Below, piece by piece: positions 4,041-63,534 of a stretch of 64,000 bases of DNA (position 1 is its first letter; each line of letters opens with the position of its first letter). This DNA is from Nematopogon swammerdamellus (Eukaryota > Arthropoda > Insecta > Lepidoptera > Adelidae): assembly GCA_946902875.1 (NCBI GenBank), contig OX336336.1, positions 4,744,545 through 4,808,544 of the forward strand, written 5' to 3'. The notes beneath the pieces are model-generated. The model ran no database searches. It was not told where the DNA came from and was given only the letters and a program-made list of their open reading frames with translations. The translations under genes were made by a program, and so were the position numbers.

Positions 4041-4430
4041 AGGGGGCGGGGGAGGAGAGGGGGGAGGGGGGAGGGGGGAAGGGGGTGGGAAGGGGGAGGG
4101 AGAGGGAGAGGGAGAGGGAGAGGGAGAGGGAGAGGGAGAGGGAGAGGCAGAGGCAGAGGCAGAGGCAGAGGCAGAGGGAGAGGGAGAGGGAGAGGGAGAG
4201 GGAGAGGGAGAGGGAGAGGGAGAGGGAGAGGGAGAGGGAGAGGGAGAGGGAGAGGGAGAGGGAGAGGGAGAGGGAGAGGGAGAGGGAGAGGGAGAGGGAG
4301 AGGGAGAGGGAGAGGGAGAGGGAGAGGGAGAGGGAGAGGGAGAGGGAGAGGGAGAGGGAGAGGGAGAGGGAGAGGGAGAGGGAGAGGGAGAGGGAGAGGG
4401 AGAGGGAGAGGGAGAGGGAGAGGGAGAGGA
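4041..4430. repeat. (GGGAGA)n purine tract
   Basis: Irregular G-rich lead (4041-4095), then near-perfect GGGAGA repeats to 4430 with a block of GGCAGA variants at about 4146-4180. The long open frames across it on both strands encode only dipeptide repeats and are not genes. Perfect strand asymmetry makes it a candidate triplex-forming tract. Confidence 0.95.
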
Positions 4431-5395
4431 AATTCGTATTCAAAAGAAGAAAGTAAGTAACTGAGGCGAGGCCGAAGGTCGAGCTGCGTTCAGGAAGTCC
4501 TTCTCGAAGAAAGTAAGTAACTAAGGGCGTGGCCGAAGGCCGAGCTGTATCCTGGAAGACGCTAAACCTTCTCGATGACAGTAGGTAACTATGGGCGATA
4601 GTTACTTACTTTCTTCAAGACGGTTTATAGTCTTCCTGAACGCAGCTCGGCCTTCGGCCTCGCCCTCAATTACTTAATTTCTTCGAAAAGGTTTATAGTC
4701 TTCCTGAACGCAGCTCGGCCTTCGGCCTCGCCGTTAGTTACTTACTTTCATCGAGAAGGTTTATGGTCTTCCTGAACGCAGCTCGGCCCTCGGCCTCGCC
4801 CTCTGTTACTTACTTTCTCCGAAAAGGTCATCGTCTTCCTGATCGCAGCTCGGCCTTCGGCCTCGCCCTCAGTTACGTACTTTCATCAAGAAGGTTTATA
4901 GTCTTTCTGAACGCAGCTCGGCCTTCGGCCTCGCCCTCAATTACTTAATTTCTTCGAAAAGATTTATAGTCTTCCTGAACGCAGCTCGGCCTTCGGCCTC
5001 GCCCTTAGTTACTTACTTTCATCGAGAAGGTTTATGGTCTTCCTGAACGCAGCTCGGCCTTCGGCCTCGCCCTCTGTTACTTACTTTCTTCGAAAAGGTC
5101 ATCGTCTTCCTGAACGCAGCTCGGCCTTCGGCCTCGCCCTCAGTTACTTACTTTCTTCAAGAAGGTTTATAGTTTTCCTGTACGCAGCTCGGCCTTCGGC
5201 CTCGCTCTCAATTACTTACTTTCTTTGAGTAGGTTTATCGTCTTCCTGAACGCAACGCCTTCGGCCTCGCCCTTAGTTACTTACTTTAGTTGAAAAGGTT
5301 TATCGTTTACCTTAACGCAGATCGGCCTTAGTTACTTACTTTCTTCCTTTGAAATACGAATTTCACGCGAGCGAAGCCGCGGGCAAAAGCTAGTA
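4431..5395. mobile_element. Foldback element of ~68-bp minisatellite units
   Basis: Two to three units in one orientation (4440-4598) switch to about eleven in the opposite orientation (4599-5345). Each unit is about 68 bp, centred on the palindromic core agctcggccttcggcctcgc. The right end is acgaatttcacgcgagcgaa with gccgcgggcaaaagctagt, the reverse complement of the left end of related elements at 10729 and 29928. The left terminus is replaced by the GGGAGA tract. Confidence 0.8.
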
Positions 5396-10545: not shown

Positions 10546-10973
10546 GTAATACGAACTCAATAATGTCCTTACTAAAGTGGTAGTCAAAAATTATATATGC
10601 TCATAAAATTAGATTCAGTACACGTCCGTCAGATTCCGTTTTCGACAGATCTTTTTTCCCGAATTGGTCTGAATTATAACCTCTTGATTCAGACCAACCA
10701 AATTATACAACGGAATTATAACATAACTAGCTGAGCCCGCGGCTCCGCTCGCGTGAAATTCGTATTCCAAAGAAGAAATTAACTAACTTAGGGCGAGGCC
10801 GAAGGCCGAGCTGCTTTCAGGTAAACGATAAACCTTTCTCAAATAAAGGAAGTAAGTAAGGGCGAGGCCGAAGGCCGAGCTGCGTTCAGGAAGACGATAA
10901 ACCTTCTGGAAGAAAGGAAGGAACTAAGTGCGAGGCCGAAGGCCGAGCTGCGTTCAGGTAAACCAAAAACCCT

Positions 10974-11600: not shown

Positions 11601-12329
11601 AATCTTAATATTAATTAACTTTATTCGAGATGGTTTAGCTTCTTCCTGAACGCAGCTCGGCCTTCGGCCTCGCCCTTAGTTACTTGCTTTCTTCGAGATG
11701 GTTTATCATTTGTCAGAACGTAGCTCGGCCTTCGGCCTCGCCTTAGTTGCTTACTTTCTTCAAGATGGTTTAGCTTCTTCCTGAACGCAGCTCGGCCTTC
11801 GGCCTCGCCTTTAGTTACTTGCTTTCTTCGAGATGGTTTTTAAATTATCCGAACGTAGCTCGGCCTTCGGCCTCGCCTTAGTTACTTACTTTCTTCAAGA
11901 TGGTTTAGCTTCTTCCTGAACGCAGCTCGGCCTGCGGCCTCGCCCATAGTTACTTACTTTCTTCGAGCAGGTTTATGGTCTTCCAGAATAGAGCTCGGCC
12001 TTCGGCCTCGCCCTTAGTTACTTACTTTTTTCAAGAATGTTTTTCTTCTTCCTGTGAACTCAGCTCCGCCTTCCGCCTCGCCCTTAGTTACTTTCATCGA
12101 GAAAGAATATCGTTTACGTGAGCGCAGATCCGCCTTCGGGCCCCCCTTTAGTTACTTACTTTCTTTTTTTAAATACGAATTTCACGCGAGCGAAGCCGCG
12201 GGCATCAGATATATAAATTTTATTGCACCAATGACAGCGACATAACTTCGACTTTCAATTATTATTTTTATTTATCAAACAATTTGTCACCGGCCAGCTC
12301 ACGTCGAGATGACAGTTCTCCGTTGTCAA

Positions 12330-49411: not shown

Positions 49412-49800
49412 TCACTTACGATTCAGTTCTTTTCTCGGTTCCACGTTGTTCTGGTGCGACAGCGGTGGCTGCTTAGAGTACAAATAGTTTGACAGCAGCT
49501 CATCTGTACTCGCTGCTTTTTCATCTTGATTTTTACCCCGTTTGACATAGTTAGAGGCGTTGCTGTTGGAATTGTGAAGAATCTCATACAGACTGGTCTC
49601 CATTGGATATTTGGCGTTCGGTCTGGGCCGTTTGGTATAATCTGTGTACTTCTTCGGGCGTCTTCTGTCCTTGGGGCCATTGGGTTCGGATTTAGGACGT
49701 AGGCTCTCAGGAATGGCGTCTGCTTTAAGCTTCACGAAGGACGTGTTGACGACCGAACAGTCAATCTGCATGAGGGTTATGCCCTCGCTGAGTGTTGATT
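49412..49800 (-). CDS. ATF6: ATF6 terminal exon, luminal C-terminus
   Basis: Acceptor caacttcacag precedes 49800. Encodes ESTLSEGITLMQIDCSVVNT, SFVKLKADAIPESLRP, then a Pro/Arg/Asn-rich tail ending ELNRK and a stop. The MQIDC.V..T.......IP..LR stretch parallels the conserved luminal end of vertebrate ATF6. The tail contains N-x-S/T sequons. At the stop, aatc|gtaagtga would also be a good donor; if used, the last residues would change and a further exon downstream would be needed. An AATAAA (minus) at 49391-49396 lies 16 nt past the stop, another at 46639. Confidence 0.85.
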
Positions 49801-50616: not shown

Positions 50617-51024
50617 CATTCTTGGACTTGGCCGGTAGTATGAGCGCCATCTTCGGTGGTCGCGTATCATTATGCGCGGTGGCAGGCAGCAACAGATGCT
50701 CCCCTTTCCCCACGCCCACCACGTAGAATGTGTCTTCCCTCCTGTGAAGAGCGCGCAGCAACGCTGTCCACTCGCCAAAGTCATCCACCATGTCGTAGCC
50801 CCCTCTCAAATGATTGCCGATGCGTTTCGGATACACCGTATCGTAATCAACGACTGCATTCTCATTGTAGTCGGGCTCTTTCGCCCTTCGAAGGCGAGCT
50901 CTGTGCGGTTTCTGCTCGGGTACGGGTTTGGACTCGGGTTTGAAGTGTGGCGCTTCCAGCATGGGCTGGAGGTGAGGAGGTATGTTCAGCTTGTGGAGCA
51001 GTTTGTACGCTTTGAGGACGTCAT
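50617..51024 (-). CDS. ATF6: ATF6 exon 7, luminal domain
   Basis: Acceptor attcttgcag (minus) and donor aatg|gtgaat. Encodes DDVLKAYKLLHKLNIPPHLQ, a Lys/Pro-rich linker with RARLRRAKEPDYNENAV, YDTVYPKRIGN, then WTALLRALHRREDTFYVVGV, EHLLLPATAHN and RPPKMALILPA. The block R..DTFYVV......HLLLPAT.HN...PKM...LPA is the best conserved part of the ATF6 luminal domain, needed for stress sensing. 408 nt, phases 2 and 1 match both neighbours. Confidence 0.93.
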
Positions 51025-51941: not shown

Positions 51942-52151
51942 CTGTATGAACATTATCGCCGAGCGGCCGACTGTGCACGTTGTTCCTCCAGCCGTCGTCG
52001 AGGCTCCAGTTGAGACCGGCGCGGCCGATCCAGCGCTCCAGCTCGCCGGCCAGCCGCAGGCTCTCCGTCTGCTGGATGTGCGGCTCCGCGCCGTGCAGCG
52101 TACCGTTGCTGCAGTCCCAGTGAGATTTGTTCGACGACCCTTCAAGGTCTG
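51942..52151 (-). CDS. ATF6: ATF6 exon 6, luminal domain
   Basis: Acceptor acatttccag, donor acag|gtaagg. Encodes DLEGSSNKSHWDCSNGTLHG, AEPHIQQTESLRLAGELERW, IGRAGLNWSLDDGWRNNVHS, RPLGDNVHT. The TESLRL..EL..W helix is a hallmark of ATF6. Sequons NKS and NGT are visible. Starts with two and ends with one base of split codons, which fit 55908-56005 and 50617-51024. Confidence 0.93.
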
Positions 52152-52544: not shown

Positions 52545-53100
52545 TGAGTCACCCAACGAAGGTGTGGATCTAAGCTTACGATGGCTTCACCGAACATATC
52601 CGGGCCCATCGGCAGTAGAGAAGGGTATCAATCGAGGCCGGGACTAGCGAGTGGCCACTCTAAATTTCCCGCGCATGCTTCACGTTTCGGCTCGCATCAA
52701 GCCCTCGTCAGCTAGTCTGCGTTGACTAGGACGCGGGGAAATACCAGTCCCGCTCTCGACCACCCTCTCTCTACCTATTCATATTCTGTAGGATGCTTCC
52801 AGTGACGTTTTCAAAGCTCTCTCCATGTATGAGCTTAGCGTCGATCTTGGCAGCCCTAGATTCTTGAAGAGACTGTAGAGCGACTTTGCTGGTAGTCCAC
52901 TTGCTCCGACTTCCACAGCAAAGAGATCAGTCTTGAATCCGTTTCTCACAATCCGGTCTACTAAGTTGCAGTACTTGTTAAGTCTGATGTTGTGTTCCGT
53001 CGGTATGTTGCTTCCCATGGAACTGAAGAAGGTTTAGTCCAATCTTTGGGCAGCTTTTTGGCTCCAGGTTTCACAAAGTTGACCTTCTGGAAGCCGCCAC
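52545..53100 (-). pseudogene. R2-type LINE, second 3'-end copy
   Basis: Repeats the 3' UTR and last ~80 codons of the adjacent LINE (HNIRLNKYCNLVDRIVRNGF, KSLYSLFKNLGLPRSTLSSY) with about 150 bp deleted between ggaactg and aagaaggttt. Same orientation as the main copy, head to tail. Confidence 0.85.
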
Positions 53101-55907
53101 TGGTTTGCCCTTTTCTTTTGAGGGTGTGGACCTGAGCTTGCGATGTCTACACCCAACATATCCGGGCCCATCGGCAGTAGAGGAGAGTGTTAATCGAGGT
53201 CGGGACTGGCGAGTGGCCACTCTAAATTTCCCGCGCATGCTTCACGTTTCGGCTCGCTTCAAGCCCTCGTCAGCTAGTCTGCGTTGACTAGGACGCGGGG
53301 AAACCACCAGTCCCGCTCTCGACCTCCCTCTCTCTACCTATCCATATTCTGTAGGATGCTTCCAGTGACGTTTTCGAAGCTCTCTCCATATATGAGCTTA
53401 GCGTCGATCTTGGGAGCCCTAGATTCTTGAAGAGACTGTAGAGCGACTTCGCTGGTAGTCCTCTTGCTCCGACTTCCACAGCGAAGAGATCAGTCTTGAA
53501 TCCGTTTCTCACAATCCGGTCTACTAAGTTGCAGTACTTGTTAAGCTTGATGTTGTGGTCCTTCGGTATGTTACTTTCCCATGGAACTGTAAGTTCAACA
53601 AGTACTACATGCTTTGTCGCTTTTGAGAATATGAGTATATCCGGCCTTAATGCTGTGGTACAGATTTCCGAAGGCATTTGGTAATGCTTCTCATGTGTTT
53701 CCATCAACAATTCCCAATCCTTTGCTGCTCCCAAAATTGAAGAAGGTTTAGTCCTATCTTTGGGCAGCTTATTGGCTCCAGGTTTCACAAAGTTGACCTT
53801 CTGGAAGCCGCTACTGGTTTGCCCTTTCCTGGTCCGTGCAATTGACAGGTTGATGGCCTCTCTGATGATTTGGAGGACTTTATCATGACGGTAGGAATAC
53901 TGGCCTCGCTCAAGTAGTATTTTGCATCTGCATAACAAATGTTTTGCCGTGCCTACGAACTCCTTACATGACGGGCATAGTCTATTTGTAGATTTCCCCC
54001 ATCTAACTAGGTTACTCGGGTCGGGGAGAGTAAGCTGGAATGCATTTAAGTAGAACTTAAGCAGCTCAGGGGACCAGTTGTATATTATGGATTTCCACTT
54101 CAATGCAGGAGGGATGCAGAAGTCACCCACTGTTAGCCAATCATTCTGCATTTCCAGGTTTAAGGCGTGAAGTTTGAAGCCTTGTTCCATGTCCTCCTGA
54201 GCAAAACCTTTCAGTATTTCTTTATCAGACTTTGCTGTTTCTATGCCCAATCCAGATCTATTGGTGCGTGTACCAACTTGGAATGATTTGTAGAAGTCGA
54301 GTCTCGATTCCAGTTCATCTGATAGTGATGTGTTGGGTAAGGCTTGAATAGCGCTATCATTGGAGTCTTTGAGTATACATCGTTTGGCTATTCTCGCCTT
54401 TTGATAAAATATCGACGGTTTCTTAATGTTCAGTCCAAAGTTATTGTGAGATCTGTATAGCGTCGACGAGTCAGCCGGGTGAGCCAGTCCAAACCATGAT
54501 TTCAGGAATCTGGTCACATACGAGTCTAATTTAGTCAGGTTTTGCTTTGTGAAGTCGTAGACGAGAAATGGCCATGAAAGTTTTGATGTCAGGTAGTTAT
54601 CGTAAATCCATGCCTTTTGTGTACCCAGGAGGGGAAGATTGTCAGTTTGGCGGAGGCTCTCTTCGAAAAGTTGGACAATATCATCAGTAGGATGCTCCTT
54701 TCCTCTGCTGGTGATCCTTTTGCCCAAGAATTTAAAAGGAGCTTCATCAGCCACGGTTGCGATTGGTTTTCCGGCTACTGTCAGACCTGGATTGCTCGAG
54801 GTAAACTTTGAACCTTTCCTGGTTAAGCTCAAACAGTAGCACTTCGCTGGTTTTATCTTCATCCCTTTAGTCCATTCACAATAGTCATCTACCACCTTAA
54901 GAAGCGCCTGATTTTGTTTTGGATTGCGGGTTAACAGCGTAATATCATCCGCAAATGCCAGGATGGCCGCCATATATGTGTCTCCATATTTGAACCTGTA
55001 TCCCCATTTGTTTTCTTTTACGACAAGCGTATCAATTAGAATGTTGATAACAATGTTAAATGTAACAGGAGAGAGGCAGCAACCCTGGAAAAGTCCTATG
55101 CCGTAACGAATTTCCGGTATCTTCTCCGTTTCGCCTTTTACTTGTATTACAAAGGAAAGTTTTTTGTAGTAGGAGGCTATTATATTACAGATCAGAGGTG
55201 GCACATTATACCACTCTAGCGCCTTTAATAGTAACTCATGGCGCACCGAACCGAAGGCGTTTTCAAAGTCTAACCACGTGGCAGTTAATTGTCTCTCATT
55301 CTTCCTTGCATCTCTAAGACATTCAGTCAGCAAAGAATTATGTTCGAGACACCCTGCAACTCTTGGGAGAAAACCTTTCTGGTACTTCTTCGGTAAGTAG
55401 TCGTTGGTACACATATGTTTGAGTAGTCTGGCCTGTATAATGGAGAAGAATATTTTCGAAATTGTGTTCGTAAGGGCTATAGGTCTAATATCCTTGGGAT
55501 CAGTAACTTCTTTCTTTTTTGGTAGAAGAACAAACACGGCTTTACCAAGACAGTCTGGCACTTCTCTGTTCGTCCAAATTCTTTTGTAGATGTTCAACAT
55601 GTGTTTCCGCACTGATGGACATTTTTTGTATATGATGTATGGTATGCCATCGGGTCCCGGGGCGGAACTATTTGGTTTCCTTTTTATGTGGTATTCCAGC
55701 TCTTCCATCGTCGGTGAATCAGCATCAAATGCTAGAGCAGGTTCTTTGGGTTTTGGAGCTGGTGGATCCCTGTAAGTTATATCTGCCTCCGGGGTGGTAT
55801 ATGTGGATTTAAAGTAGTTGAACATCTCGTCCGTACTTAACCTAATTGTACCCTGCTGTTCCTTAAAAAGCTTTAATCGTCGGTGTAGAATGTAATGTTC
55901 ATCAGAC
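53101..55907 (-). mobile_element. R2-type (RLE) LINE, 5'-truncated, long open ORF
   Basis: A continuous frame of 845 codons from the Met at 55825 to 53288, open further upstream to at least the ATF6 donor at 55907. Order: PGPDGIPYIIYK, WLDFENAFGSVRHEL, GCCLSPVTFNIV, ILAFADDITLLTRN (reverse transcriptase with intact ADD), thumb, CCHC knuckle CPSCKEFVGTAKHLLCRC, and ALRPDILIFSK with VLVELTVPWE, the RPD...E..V signature of a restriction-like endonuclease. No N-terminal zinc finger is seen, so it is 5'-truncated by target-primed insertion. Full-length R2-like proteins exceed 1,000 residues. Absence of stops suggests a young copy. Sense orientation inside an ATF6 intron. Clade within the RLE group not determined. 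Confidence 0.9.
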
Positions 55908-56005
55908 CTTGTGGCAAGAATTCCGCTGAAGTATCGTCACTCGCAAGTAGGTGTCGCCGCGCCCTCGAGGGAGATTCAGGGGCACCCACAGGAGTGTTCG
56001 ACCAC
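55908..56005 (-). CDS. ATF6: ATF6 exon 5, S1P cleavage motif
   Basis: 98-nt exon after the acceptor ttttattatgccag. Encodes WSNTPVGAPESPSRARRHLL then ASDDTSAEFLPQ. RRHLL matches the Site-1 protease motif just luminal of the membrane in vertebrate ATF6. Phases fit both neighbours (one base at each end). The donor is caag|gtctgat, weaker than the others, and the R2-type LINE begins at or within a few bases of it. The exon was found by phase and motif; a LINE-frame reading of its last bases is also open. Confidence 0.82.
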
Positions 56006-56085
56006 CTGGCATAATAAAATTATTTCAATAATTATATTATTACTAAACAACAAAGACAGTTCAATGAAAGTTGGTTGGCACTTAC

Positions 56086-56183
56086 CCAAATCCGTTCCAG
56101 TTTAGGGAGACCATAAATATCATGGCGAATATAACGGCTACGTTTTTTCTAGGAATAAGCGAGCTCGGGTCTAGCCTTGGCAC
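56086..56183 (-). CDS. ATF6: ATF6 exon 4, membrane segment
   Basis: Acceptor gtgtctgtttcag, donor ttgg|gtaagt. Encodes VPRLDPSSLIPRKNVAVIFA then MIFMVSLNWNGF. The hydrophobic run VAVIFAMIFMVSLNW is the transmembrane helix, with flanking basic PRKN on the cytosolic side. Site-2 protease would cut within it. Starts in phase 0, so it joins correctly to the end of the zipper exon at 58074. Confidence 0.92.
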
Positions 56184-56429
56184 CTGAAACAGACACATTA
56201 ATATTAACCTGACGGCACCCAACTGCTCCGCGCAGACCAGGTATTTCTTATTGAAACGAGATTGCACTTCAGATAGATGATTAAAAAACCCTTTCCATTA
56301 CCATCAAACCATTGCATCAAGTAGAACTGTCAAAAGTGTGCACGCAATAAGTCTGCACAAATCATACTGTTCTAGATTTGGTGTCGTTCAAGTGCACTTG
56401 CGTAGTCCTGCTAGAGCGGAAGGTGTTAC

Positions 56430-58203
56430 CTTGCGAGCTGCGCGTCCGCAGCCCTACAGCTGCTCCCGCAGCAGACAGTTCTCGATGCGCAGCCGCCCGA
56501 TCTCCTGCTGCGCCTCCGCCAGCTGCAGCTCCAGTGACGACACATAGTCCTTCTTCTTCTTGTTACCTTACGAGCTGCGCGTCCGCAGCCCTGCAGCTGC
56601 TCCCGCAGCAGACAGTTCTCGATGCGCAGCCGCCCGATCTCCTGCTGCGCCTCCGCCAGCTGCAGCTCCAGCGACGACACATAGTCCTTCTTCTTCTTGT
56701 TACCTTACGAGCTGCGCGTCCGCAGCCCTGCAGCTGCTCCCGCAGCAGACAGTTCTCGATGCGCAGCCGCCCGATCTCCTGCTGCGCCTCCGCCAGCTGC
56801 AGCTCCAGCGACGACACATAGTCCATCTTCTTCTTGTTACCTTACGAGCTGCGCGTCCGCAGCCCTGCAGCTGCTCCCGCAGCAGACAGTTCTCGATGCG
56901 CAGCCGCCCGATCTCCTGCTGCGCCTCCGCCAGCTGCAGCTCCAGCGACGACACATAGTCCATCTTCTTCTTGTTACCTTACGAGCTGCGCGTCCGCAGC
57001 CCTGCAGCTGCTCCCGCAGCAGACAGTTCTCGATGCACAGCCGCCCGATCTCCCGCTGCGCCTCCGCCAGCTGCAGCTCCAGCGACGACACATGGTCCAT
57101 CTTCTTCTTGTTACCTTGAGAGCTGCGCGTCCGCAGCCCTGCAGCTGCTCCCGCAGCAGACAGTTCTCGATGCGCAGCCGCCCGATCTCCTGCTGCGCCT
57201 CCGCCAGCTACAGCTCCAGCGACGGCACATAGTCCATCTTCTTCTTGTTACCTTGCGAGCTGCGCGTCCGCAGCCCTGCAGCTGCTCCCGTAGCAGACAG
57301 TTCTCGATGCGCAGCCGCCCGATCTCCTGCTGCGCCTCCGCGAGCTGCAGCTCCAGCGACGACACATAGTCCATCTTCTTCTTGTTACCTTGCGAGCTGC
57401 GCGTCCGCAGCCCTGCAGCTGCTCCCGCAGCAGACAGTTCTCGATGCGCAGCCGCCCGATCTCCTGCTGCGCCTCCGCCAGCTACAGCTCCAGCGACGAC
57501 ACATAGTCCATCTTCTTCTTGTTACCTTACGAGCTGCGCGTCCGCAGCCCTGCAGCTGCTCCCGCAGCAGACAGTTCTCGATGCGTAGCCGCCCGATCTC
57601 CTGCTGCGCCTCCGCCAGCTGCAGCTCCAGCGACGACACATAGTCCATCTTCTTCTTGTTACCTTGCGAGCTGCGCGTCCGCAGCCCTGCAGCTGCTCCC
57701 GCAGCAGACAGTTCTCGATGCGCAGCCGCCCGATCTCCTGCTGCGCCTCCGCCAGCTGCAGCTCCAGCGACGACACATAGTCCATCTTCTTCTTGTTACC
57801 TTACGAGCTGCGCGTCCGCAGCCCTGCAGCTGCTCCCGCAGCAGACAGTTCTCGATGCGTAGCCGCCCGATCTCCTGCTGCGCCTCCGCCAGCTGCAGCT
57901 CCAGCGACGACACATAGTCCATCTTCTTCTTGTTACCTTGCGAGCTGCGCGTCCGCAGCCCTGCAGCTGCTCCCGCAGCAGACAGTTCTCGATGCGCAGC
58001 CGCCCGATCTCCTGCTGCGCCTCCGCCAGCTGCAGCTCCAGCGACGACACATAGTCCATCTTCTTCTTGTTACCTTGCGAGCTGCGCGTCCGCAGCCCTG
58101 CAGCTGCTCCCGCAGCAGACAGTTCTCGATGCGCAGCCGTCCGATCTCCTGCTGCGCCTCCGCCAGCTGCAGCTCCAGCGACGACACATAGTCCTTCTTC
58201 TTC
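56430..58203 (-). repeat. 13-copy tandem array of the ATF6 zipper exon
   Basis: Exon-end donors (caag|gtaac on the minus strand) recur every 137 bp at 56430, 56567, 56704, 56841, 56978 and so on to 58074. Each unit holds the exon from the lysine run through [40 protein letters not shown] plus gtaaca. Only the rightmost copy has the upstream acceptor and NRESATLSR. Ten of twelve internal units have MDYV instead of KDYV; the leftmost copy has a stop (TAG) in the zipper frame. Shared variants 274 bp apart show dimer-scale expansion. Confidence 0.97.
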
Positions 58204-58227
58204 TTGCGCGACAGTGTGGCCGATTCT
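58074..58227 (-). CDS. ATF6: ATF6 exon 3, basic region end and leucine zipper
   Basis: Acceptor aattctctgcag (minus), donor cgcaag|gtaaca. One base plus 51 codons: [51 protein letters not shown]. Joined to the previous exon it gives NRESATLSR, the canonical NxxSAxxSR bZIP signature; the heptad leucine positions follow ([26 protein letters not shown]). This is the only array copy with a 3' splice site, so the likely mRNA splices from here straight to 56183, skipping twelve downstream copies. Confidence 0.93.
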
Positions 58228-58261
58228 CTGCAGAGAATTGCTTATATTATTTTTTTAAAGG

Positions 58262-58365
58262 CTATTTCTTCATTCCTCCTCTCTCTCTCTCTCTCCCTCC
58301 CTCCCTCCCCCTTCCTTCTCCCTCTCTCCCCCTCCCTCTTCCCTCCCTCCCCCCCTCTCCCCCAC
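58262..58365. repeat. CT-rich simple repeat
   Basis: TCTC and CCCT runs on the plus strand, just upstream (minus sense) of the zipper exon acceptor. On the minus strand it is purine-rich, so it does not itself serve as a polypyrimidine tract. Confidence 0.85.
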
Positions 58366-59093
58366 TAGTCCGGCGCGCGGCATATGTCGAGCATACAATT
58401 ATAAAAAATTTTTTTTTCATAAATTGGTGTTCAATAAAGAATACATACAATAAAATAAAAGAAACAGTTGAAAGTTAAACTTTTAAATATTTTCCATAGT
58501 TGCATTCGCTTGCCATTTTAATTATTAACTTGTCCTCGCGGGCAGCGATGAATTTATTGTTTACTGTATAATTTCATCCATAGGTAGGTAATCTACGGTT
58601 GGACATGTCGAAAATTCCGCCAGTTCTAAATTCAATGCGAAGAAGAACTGACAAACTAAACTTCGCAAGTCACAATGCTCTGTTTGTAGCTTATAAGTAT
58701 TATATTATAGTAACTTACACATAATTAACCCATACTACCGCTCACAAGAACATTAATATTTACAGCATAAACATAAACCAACATAACACAGTGCGACGAA
58801 GTGCCGCTGACAAAGTTAATTCACTGTGCATTGTGATGGATGATGAATTGATGATGTAAACAGGTAAAATTTCTTATGTAAACAGTAAAGACATTGCCCT
58901 CAACATTCATGCTACTCACCTCATCGAGACTATACGTAGTTATATAAATGTAGGTACTATTGTTATCTTGATAATTTTATGGCTCTCAAGGAAAATATGT
59001 TTTTAGATACTGAGCAGTTAGGCGCATAGTAACGCCAACGGCGTAACGGATCGATCATATTCACATATTTTTTTTATTGAAAGCTCGACATAT
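58366..59093. other. Intronic, nothing recognised
   Basis: AT-rich; no repeat family or exon recognised. Confidence 0.4.
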
Positions 59094-60205: not shown

Positions 60206-60643
60206 TTTTTCTCTTCATTTTCGGCGTTGCATTTATCTAAATAAGAAATATAAAGTGAGTACATGCTTAGTACTAACATATCGTCGTCGTACTTTCTCAA
60301 CCTCATATCTGTATTTCGGCAGGTTTACAGGAGAAGGAAAAAACTCAATATTATTTTATTGAATTTTTTTAGGTATATTGTTTGAATGCCATTTCATAAA
60401 TATATATAAAATACACCTTTTAAAGATAATTTTATAATAGATTAACTTACACATTTAATGTAAGAGGAGAATTTGGAGATACGAGCTTGCAGTATTAAGG
60501 ATTCCCATACATTCGAGTTACTGTAACCATGAGATACGAGGTTATTGAATTAAAACTAACAGTCACACTATTATATTTTTTAATTATTTTAATTATAAGA
60601 TAAGCAAAATCAAACAAAATCAGAAGACATTAAGTCGCGCGGC

Positions 60644-60960: not shown

Positions 60961-62082
60961 CATGACACTTACATCTTTTGACGTGATGACGTCACGTCTT
61001 ATAAATTGATGAGCACCGGCTGCACGTACGAAAGCGTGTCACGTTGATATTCAAAGTTACCATGGAAACGTCTTAAGAAGTAAAACTGTCAAGATCAGAC
61101 AACAGAAGTTTTTATGGCCAGTCACAAGATGATTAATCTTTCTACTGGAAATAGAAATTACTGATCTTTGATCTATGTACTACGATTATTCCACGTCATC
61201 ACGTAAAACTATCGTCCGTAAACCGACTTTACAGACAACCAATTTTTTTATTGTTAGTTTCGGAACAAACGTAAGAGCGGCAACCTCGCATCTCCGACAT
61301 TAGGTAAAGTAATGTATGCCTTATTACTTATAGTTAGGGCTGCAAACTCATATCTGGGAGATAAGAGTTTCTTGCAGTAAACACGGATCAAGGGAGTGAG
61401 ATACGAGGATATTGCATTGTAGTTTGTAGCTGATTTCGGATTCCTTTTAAGATACGAGTTTGTGTCATTTGTGAAGCATCGACTGGAGTTGCCAGAAAGC
61501 AAAAAAAAAAATTAAAAATTATAATTTTGTAGATATGAGGTTGAGAAAGTACGACGACGATATGAACATAAAATACATATTTTTCATTTCGTTTCAACTT
61601 TTTTTTGTATTACTGCAAGCTGTCAGGAATTAGACATTCAACAGTAGGTTAGAAATGTTTTAAGTTGGCTACTAGTGTGTACTAGTAGTAGTAGTAGTAT
61701 TAGATCTTGTGGGACTTTTCTCTTTAGTATGCTGAAAATAATCTTGTCTCCTCAATTCACAAGGCATTTTTGTATCCTTACTTTGTATTTAATTGTTTGG
61801 GCGTTTATTTCTTGTTTAACGGTTGGAATGTTCAATTCGCTGTGTAGTCTCTAATTCGTTATGTGCCAGGGGGCGTTTACGATTATTCATATTGTTTTTT
61901 ATTCAAATCTGCAGAATTTCTATGTTCGAGCCAGCTGCTATTTAAAATAAAATAAACTTAAAATGAATTTACTCACGTTAAGTATTTTATTGATGGTAAT
62001 TAATAATTGCCAAAAACTTGCCAAATCAAAATTGCCAAAAAGTCAAAGAAAAATACTATATGAACAAAGATAAAAAATCCTC
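60961..62082. other. Intronic AT-rich DNA
   Basis: No exon recognised. A TAG run at 61682-61697. 61315-61460 has recurring gatacgag words, also at 60478 and 60533, perhaps an old repeat. Confidence 0.4.
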
Positions 62083-62534: not shown

Positions 62535-62731
62535 CTGTTTTTGATCATGCGCTGCTGTTTCTTAAGTGCGCGGGCCTCCAAGGTGGTGAGGTTGGTGGCC
62601 TCCCCGCTCGGCGGGGACACGCTGGGCGACGGCCGCTCCTCCTTCGGGGACAACGCGCGTGGCTGAGGCGCTATTGGCTTCATGCTGTGTGAACCGTTTA
62701 ACGATATACCGTTCATTGGTGCCGATAGAAC
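62535..62731 (-). CDS. ATF6: ATF6 exon 2, basic region
   Basis: Acceptor atttctacag, donor aacag|gttggt. 65 codons plus two bases: VLSAPMNGISLNGSHSMKPI, a Pro/Ser-rich stretch (RALSPKEERPSPSVSPP), then TTLEARALKKQQRMIKN. ALKKQQRMIKNR is the start of the ATF6 DNA-binding basic region; the final Arg codon is completed by the first base of the zipper exon. Phase 0 start fits the exon at 63275. Confidence 0.92.
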
Positions 62732-63274: not shown

Positions 63275-63534
63275 CTGAAAATGGACAGCTTCAAGATAAT
63301 TTTGCATCCGTGCGGCTGGTTTCGGCAGCGATGGTATTGGCACCTTCCCTGCGCGCGTGCCCGCTTCGTGTTTTGGAATGTTGCCGTTCAGACGAATGTA
63401 GTTCGGTTGTGTCCGTCGGTCGAGTGCGGGCACGTGACCGTTCGTGTTGAGTCGCGAGTTGTCTCGCGGCGATGAACAGCTGTTTGAATTCTCCACCTCT
63501 ACTTTGAAATGGGGTGATACCTTTAAGTTTAGAC
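63275..63534 (-). CDS. ATF6: ATF6 exon 1 in window, pre-bZIP region
   Basis: Acceptor acaatttcag before 63534, donor tttcag|gtagac. Two bases plus 86 codons: LNLKVSPHFKVEVENSNSCS, a polar stretch with Arg and Asn, then KVPIPSLPKPAARMQNYLEA and VHFQ. This is the linker between the activation domain and the basic region, poorly conserved in the family. Assigned by exact phase with the basic-region exon. The frame starts with two bases of a split codon, so an earlier exon exists to the right of the window. Confidence 0.8.

Follow-up and report, generated by a model that had tools for sequence, protein, structure and literature searches.

The ATF6 gene and its exons

The window, by which we mean the whole 64-kb stretch of DNA that was analyzed, carries on its minus strand a gene that, judged by its sequence, is a lepidopteran-type ATF6, with a tandem array at its leucine-zipper exon. 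ATF6 proteins are ER-anchored bZIP transcription factors and stress sensors, released under ER stress via proteolysis in the Golgi. Eight exons were placed via open reading frames and splice sites (Table 1) and joined into a product of 597 residues, which was used as query in a protein search. This search yielded 1355 proteins at E <= 0.001, and the homologue counts given below rest on the best 120 of these 1355. Moth and butterfly ATF6 proteins rank first among the matches listed (best E 3.5e-128), the best match being ATF6 of Anticarsia gemmatalis with 44% identity over 96% of the query. Pfam bZIP_1 was found in the product with 33.8 bits (cut-off 27.6), and the bZIP region was aligned with 56 insect homologues. 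The transmembrane segment that follows the zipper (VAVIFAMIFMVSLNW) and the RRHLL motif, which we take to be the site-1-protease site, both align with the homologues, too. The assignment to ATF6 made by an earlier reading of the sequence alone (the sequence-only reading) is thus borne out by the protein matches and the Pfam hit. The next acceptor, too, lies where it had been placed (56184), the transmembrane exon starting at 56183. From the pre-zipper exon to the last one the exons form a single open frame of 517 residues up to the stop. By eye, the nearest zipper sequences are those of Eumeta japonica, a bagworm (P0061), and of P0032.

The end of the RRHLL exon was set to 55908, at CAAG/gtctga (a slash marks a boundary here and below). 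A previous choice, 55926, was dropped as there is no GT at this position, and reverse transcriptase homology starts further on. The 597-residue query used in the protein and Pfam searches was built with 55926 and is six residues short there. Among the aligned homologues P0054 (Plutella xylostella) is an annotated ATF6 protein that has no transmembrane segment in the alignment, perhaps because its gene model is wrong or because it represents an anchor-less isoform.

Table 1. Coordinates of the ATF6 exons, the tandem array and the reverse transcriptase element in the window
Feature	Positions	Strand	Basis
ATF6 exon 5' of the bZIP, coding for part of the N-terminal region; the gene continues beyond the window	63275-63534	-	open frame, acceptor ttcag, donor gtagac
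ATF6 exon whose last codons (KKQQRMIKN plus a split codon) belong to the first half of the basic region	62535-62731	-	open frame, alignment
ATF6 zipper exon, 154 nt, with unit 1; acceptor ctctgcag, donor gtaacaag	58074-58227	-	open frame, splice sites
Array, 13 x 137 bp	56426-58206	-	unit boundaries and Tandem Repeats Finder
Unit 1: KKKK kept; sole private change synonymous (GGG>GGA)	58070-58206	-	
Units 2-11: AAG>ATG (Lys to Met) in all; TAG also in units 6 and 8	56700-58069	-	
Units 12-13: AAG at the Lys codon as in unit 1; TAG in unit 13	56426-56699	-	
ATF6 transmembrane exon (VPRLDPSSLIPRKNVAVIFAMIFMVSLNWNGF...), first acceptor past the array	56086-56183	-	open frame, alignment
ATF6 exon with RRHLL motif; end at CAAG/gtctga inferred	55908-56005	-	open frame, alignment
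Non-LTR reverse transcriptase, 5'-truncated, in the intron after the RRHLL exon (5' end approximate)	53288-55870	-	Pfam RVT_1
ATF6 luminal exon	51942-52151	-	open frame, splice sites
ATF6 luminal exon	50617-51024	-	open frame, splice sites
ATF6 last coding exon with stop	49412-49800	-	open frame

The window holds further repetitive elements. The reverse transcriptase has a long open frame, for 249 residues of which a 99.6% match, starting from query residue 22, is found in P0142, a read-derived protein; the protein database therefore includes sequence data from this or a close species. The 3' part of the element is apparently present twice in a row within 52600-53340, similar stretches lying near 53340-53160 and 52800-52600. 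A perfect 34-bp inverted repeat (60277-60310 and 61531-61564, 1220 nt apart) lies in the intron that precedes the ATF6 zipper exon. Tandem arrays of 68 bp with a common GGCCTTCGGCCTCGCCC core are located at 4600-5329, 10785-10971 and 11618-12165, and about 60 copies of GGGAGA at 4069-4429.

Thirteen units across a 5' splice site

In the array, 13 units follow one another head to tail, each exactly 137 bp long, from 58206 down to 56426. Tandem Repeats Finder calls it at 56424-58206 with 13.0 copies and 97% matches, and its score of 3405 compares with a maximum of 77 in 200 dinucleotide-preserving shuffles of positions 56001-58600. Each unit comprises the 3'-terminal 133 nt of the 154-nt zipper exon plus the first four nucleotides of the following intron (gtaa), so that the array begins 21 nt inside the exon and the first 21 exon nucleotides lie outside the unit. 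The donor AAG/GTAACA is present in all 13 units, and the acceptor of the zipper exon (...ctctgcag/AGAATCGG, exon start 58227) is found upstream of unit 1 only. A tandem duplication of the whole exon, with acceptor and donor in every copy, is ruled out as both the acceptor and the exon's first 21 nt are outside the unit. ATF6 thus has one exon followed by twelve spare splice donors.

The sequence-only reading had described 13 tandem copies of 137 bp at 56430-58203, each with its own donor and with a 3' splice site before the first unit alone; all of this holds, the ends being right within a few bases. Its description of the array as an amplified zipper exon applies to the zipper-coding stretch, which is indeed duplicated, but not to the exon as a whole, of which the unit takes up the 3' 133 nt. 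The GC content is 64% in unit 2 versus 42% in the window. Outside the array, neither strand of the 64-kb window contains any 15-base word of the consensus unit, and a transposon origin of the unit was rejected for want of another copy in it.

Variation between units

The units differ on average by 2.2% in pairwise comparisons, in agreement with the earlier view that the array looks young or homogenized. There are 14 variable positions, 11 of which are transitions. Units 2 and 4, 3 and 5, and 10 and 11 are identical, and private changes occur in units 1, 7, 8, 9 and 13. The fourth lysine of the KKKK run is replaced by methionine in units 2-11 and retained in units 1, 12 and 13. This position is a lysine in 119 of 119 motif-bearing homologues (115 matched by the motif and 4 by eye; P0055, also among the best 120 of 1355, is without the region). 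A TAG stop codon is present in units 6, 8 and 13.

With AAG taken as the ancestral codon, the 14 changes divide into six missense, six synonymous and two nonsense. Random placement would give 5.2 synonymous changes, P for six or more being 0.43; as the observed number is close to the random expectation, the copies of the array show no coding constraint. All 13 donors are unchanged, but the number of changes expected at these sites is estimated at about 1.3, too few to tell. We also compared the similarity of neighboring units with that in shuffled unit orders, and found it non-significant at lag 1 (P = 0.16) and lag 2 (P = 0.10); a higher-order dimer structure across the whole array was likewise non-significant. 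A second basic-zipper joint, as in a duplicated zipper, is present in none of the 120 homologues listed (best 120 of 1355).

Predicted consequences for splicing

Splicing usually favors short exons and the donor closest to the acceptor, and therefore we read unit 1 as exon and units 2-13 as intron. The single acceptor would pair with the nearest donor, making units 2-13 the first part of the intron, and they would drift there without coding selection. Joining of donor 1 to the transmembrane exon results in the open ATF6 frame, and no copy beyond the first seems to be required for the normal protein. Donor 2 leads to a stop shortly past the junction, and donors 3-13 or retention to one where unit 2 ends, i.e. 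for donors 2-13 or retention the predicted stop lies about 45 frameshifted residues beyond the zipper and before the transmembrane segment. The predicted truncated product keeps the basic region and the zipper and is without the membrane segment. Given this early stop, transcripts from later donors or from retention are read as leak products, which are probably degraded. A long protein made by read-through of the array was ruled out, stops being present in all frames.

Pairing of the array donors with the 5' end of U1 gives -6.5 kcal/mol, equal in all 13 units. Five of the other ATF6 donors have values of -5.4 to -11.5 kcal/mol and the inferred donor at 55908 (CAAG/gtctga) one of -4.3 kcal/mol, the array donor being weaker than four of the six. 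The AAG/GTAAC stretch is unpaired in 12 of 13 unit folds, computed in isolation, and partly paired in that of unit 13, which speaks against the donor being hidden in RNA structure; the folds of two units slightly exceed shuffles in stability (z = -1.84 and -2.45), to which we attach no clear meaning. The AG sites inside the unit have an upstream pyrimidine fraction of 0.24-0.59 versus 0.35-0.76 for the acceptors of the gene itself, and by this measure some of them might act as weak acceptors. Each unit also contains AG/GT, the AG being preceded by GC-rich sequence with 47% pyrimidines.

Origin and expansion of the array

The left flank of the array reads CGCG/CAAGAAG, the junction between units GTAA/CAAGAAG and the right flank GTAA/CACC, so that the overlap at the founding junction is CA only, 2 bp. 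The sequence-only reading had pointed to slippage or unequal exchange at a purine run. Slippage in the AAG run is not supported, and not needed, as the founding event, the overlap being limited to the 2-bp CA, a length also compatible with end joining or template switching. The array would have been founded by one tandem duplication over the 5' splice site that joined gtaa(CA) to CAAGAAG via CA microhomology. Later unequal exchange or conversion would have added copies and distributed variants among them, such as the Lys-to-Met change in copies 2-11. The ancestral codon common to units 1, 12 and 13 fits this course, being expected if the edges of an array are the least homogenized, and the three identical pairs of units point to block copying. 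Exchange in the middle of the array with older edges would fit the pattern, though the neighbor-similarity test is non-significant.

We therefore regard it as quite probable that the array is a young and largely neutral minisatellite lying across a 5' splice site, with units 2-13 now forming the head of the intron.

Alternative explanations

Tandem arrays commonly cause assembly errors, and one or a few real units might have been multiplied or miscounted. A protein search of read-derived contigs with the array translations gave no match at E <= 0.001, which weighs little as short-read contigs break in such arrays. Repeating one copy by error would, however, make identical units, and the 14 variable positions of the array form a pattern, five units having private changes; at 1.8 kb it is also shorter than a typical long read. 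An artefact is thus unlikely in our view. Still less credible is that the locus is a decaying or second ATF6 copy in which the array is without consequence. The truncated reverse transcriptase within about 40 bp of the RRHLL exon and the weak donor at the end of this exon would agree with decay, but the recognized exons stay in one open frame with similarity to ATF6 throughout.

The remaining alternatives give the units a function. The array might be a splice switch, in which later donors or retention yield an anchor-less soluble bZIP or decay transcripts and the number of repeats sets ATF6 output. Such a switch would have 13 equal donors, weaker than most others of the gene and largely unpaired in isolated unit folds, as well as a predicted product that retains basic region and zipper but ends ahead of the membrane segment, and human CBS (see below), where more repeats go with less activity, offers a precedent by analogy. 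Against it, the units bear no sign of selection beyond their intact donors, and intron retention after a single copy would yield the same truncated product. We consider this switch improbable, and somewhat more so its copy-number-tuned form, where 13 competing donors would divert ATF6 to decay or to an anchor-less bZIP that needs no Golgi cleavage, and so set each individual's threshold for ER stress. Alternatively, single copies might be spliced in before the membrane exon via weak acceptors within the units, as in-frame cassettes that lengthen the zipper. In a unit, 15 AG sites precede the donor, and with 13 of them the cassette (24-129 nt) would be in frame; the AG at unit position 33 has 59% upstream pyrimidines versus 53% for the real acceptor of the zipper exon. 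The in-frame outcome, however, follows automatically from GAG, CAG and AAG codons in a phase-0 exon, the GC-rich unit is without a clear polypyrimidine tract, three units carry stops and the Lys-to-Met change has spread freely, making zipper cassettes very improbable. The preferred reading remains the neutral minisatellite.

Relation to known repeats at splice sites

Repeats of this kind have been described in human genes. According to the cited passages, the 31-bp VNTR of human CBS, c.1444_1467+7(16_21), spans the boundary of exon 13 and intron 13, and more repeats were reported with lower enzyme activity (Lievers et al. 2001; PMC2630376, PMC5188458, PMC1395315). Like the ATF6 unit (133 + 4 nt, with a donor in 13 of 13), the CBS unit crosses the exon end and the intron start, by its name with 24 exon and 7 intron nucleotides, so each CBS unit can bring a donor; copy number is similar, and in both arrays single-nucleotide differences distinguish units. 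The CBS repeat as described there lies in a human metabolic gene and has a 31-bp unit, whereas the 137-bp ATF6 unit is from an insect and covers 86% of an internal exon and the DNA-binding dimer domain. Population polymorphism and the effect on activity have been studied for CBS, while the ATF6 array is known from one sequence. Because more repeats go with less enzyme activity in CBS, the ATF6 array need not be silent, and its copy number might by analogy affect the output of the gene.

In IFI6 (6-16, G1P3) a minisatellite gives multiple splice donors and three mRNA species, as summarized in the source (Turri et al. 1995; PMC4526556). There, too, extra donors at the end of an exon are provided by repeat units. 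IFI6 uses two downstream units as donors, whereas later donors in ATF6 would break the frame. Work on potato RdRp describes introns created by tandem duplication across AGGT, following the Rogers 1989 model (PMC4974935), and cites fission yeast genes with an intron lying across two or four 24-bp duplicates. Here as in ATF6 what was exon becomes intron through tandem duplication of a stretch that includes a splice site; unlike intron gain by the Rogers model as outlined there, ATF6 needs no new intron, as an existing one would be lengthened at its 5' side by copies of exon sequence. CBS 844ins68 is a duplicated intron 7/exon 8 junction at which the distal site is favored (PMC2630376). It resembles the ATF6 array in having a duplicated splice junction and, with two sites, a choice between them, and differs in being one duplication, at the other exon boundary, and in favoring the distal site.

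In view of CBS, IFI6 and potato RdRp, this kind of array is therefore already known, and the novelty implied by the sequence-only reading was overstated, given that boundary-spanning VNTRs that multiply donors are described in human CBS and IFI6. No ATF6 of such a layout is described in the papers that our searches of open-licence full texts listed, and the ATF6 member is new as far as these searches show.

The array is a clear natural case in which repeated duplication of a donor turns exon sequence into intron. As its unit is much longer than that of CBS and comprises most of an exon, it tests exon definition over lengths of 154 to 1798 nt. The outcome in ATF6 can be read in simple RNA-seq, which would tell whether, of the 13 identical donors, the spliceosome keeps to the first. 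Use of later ones would result in an anchor-less ATF6 product, which would bear on how the stress response is set.
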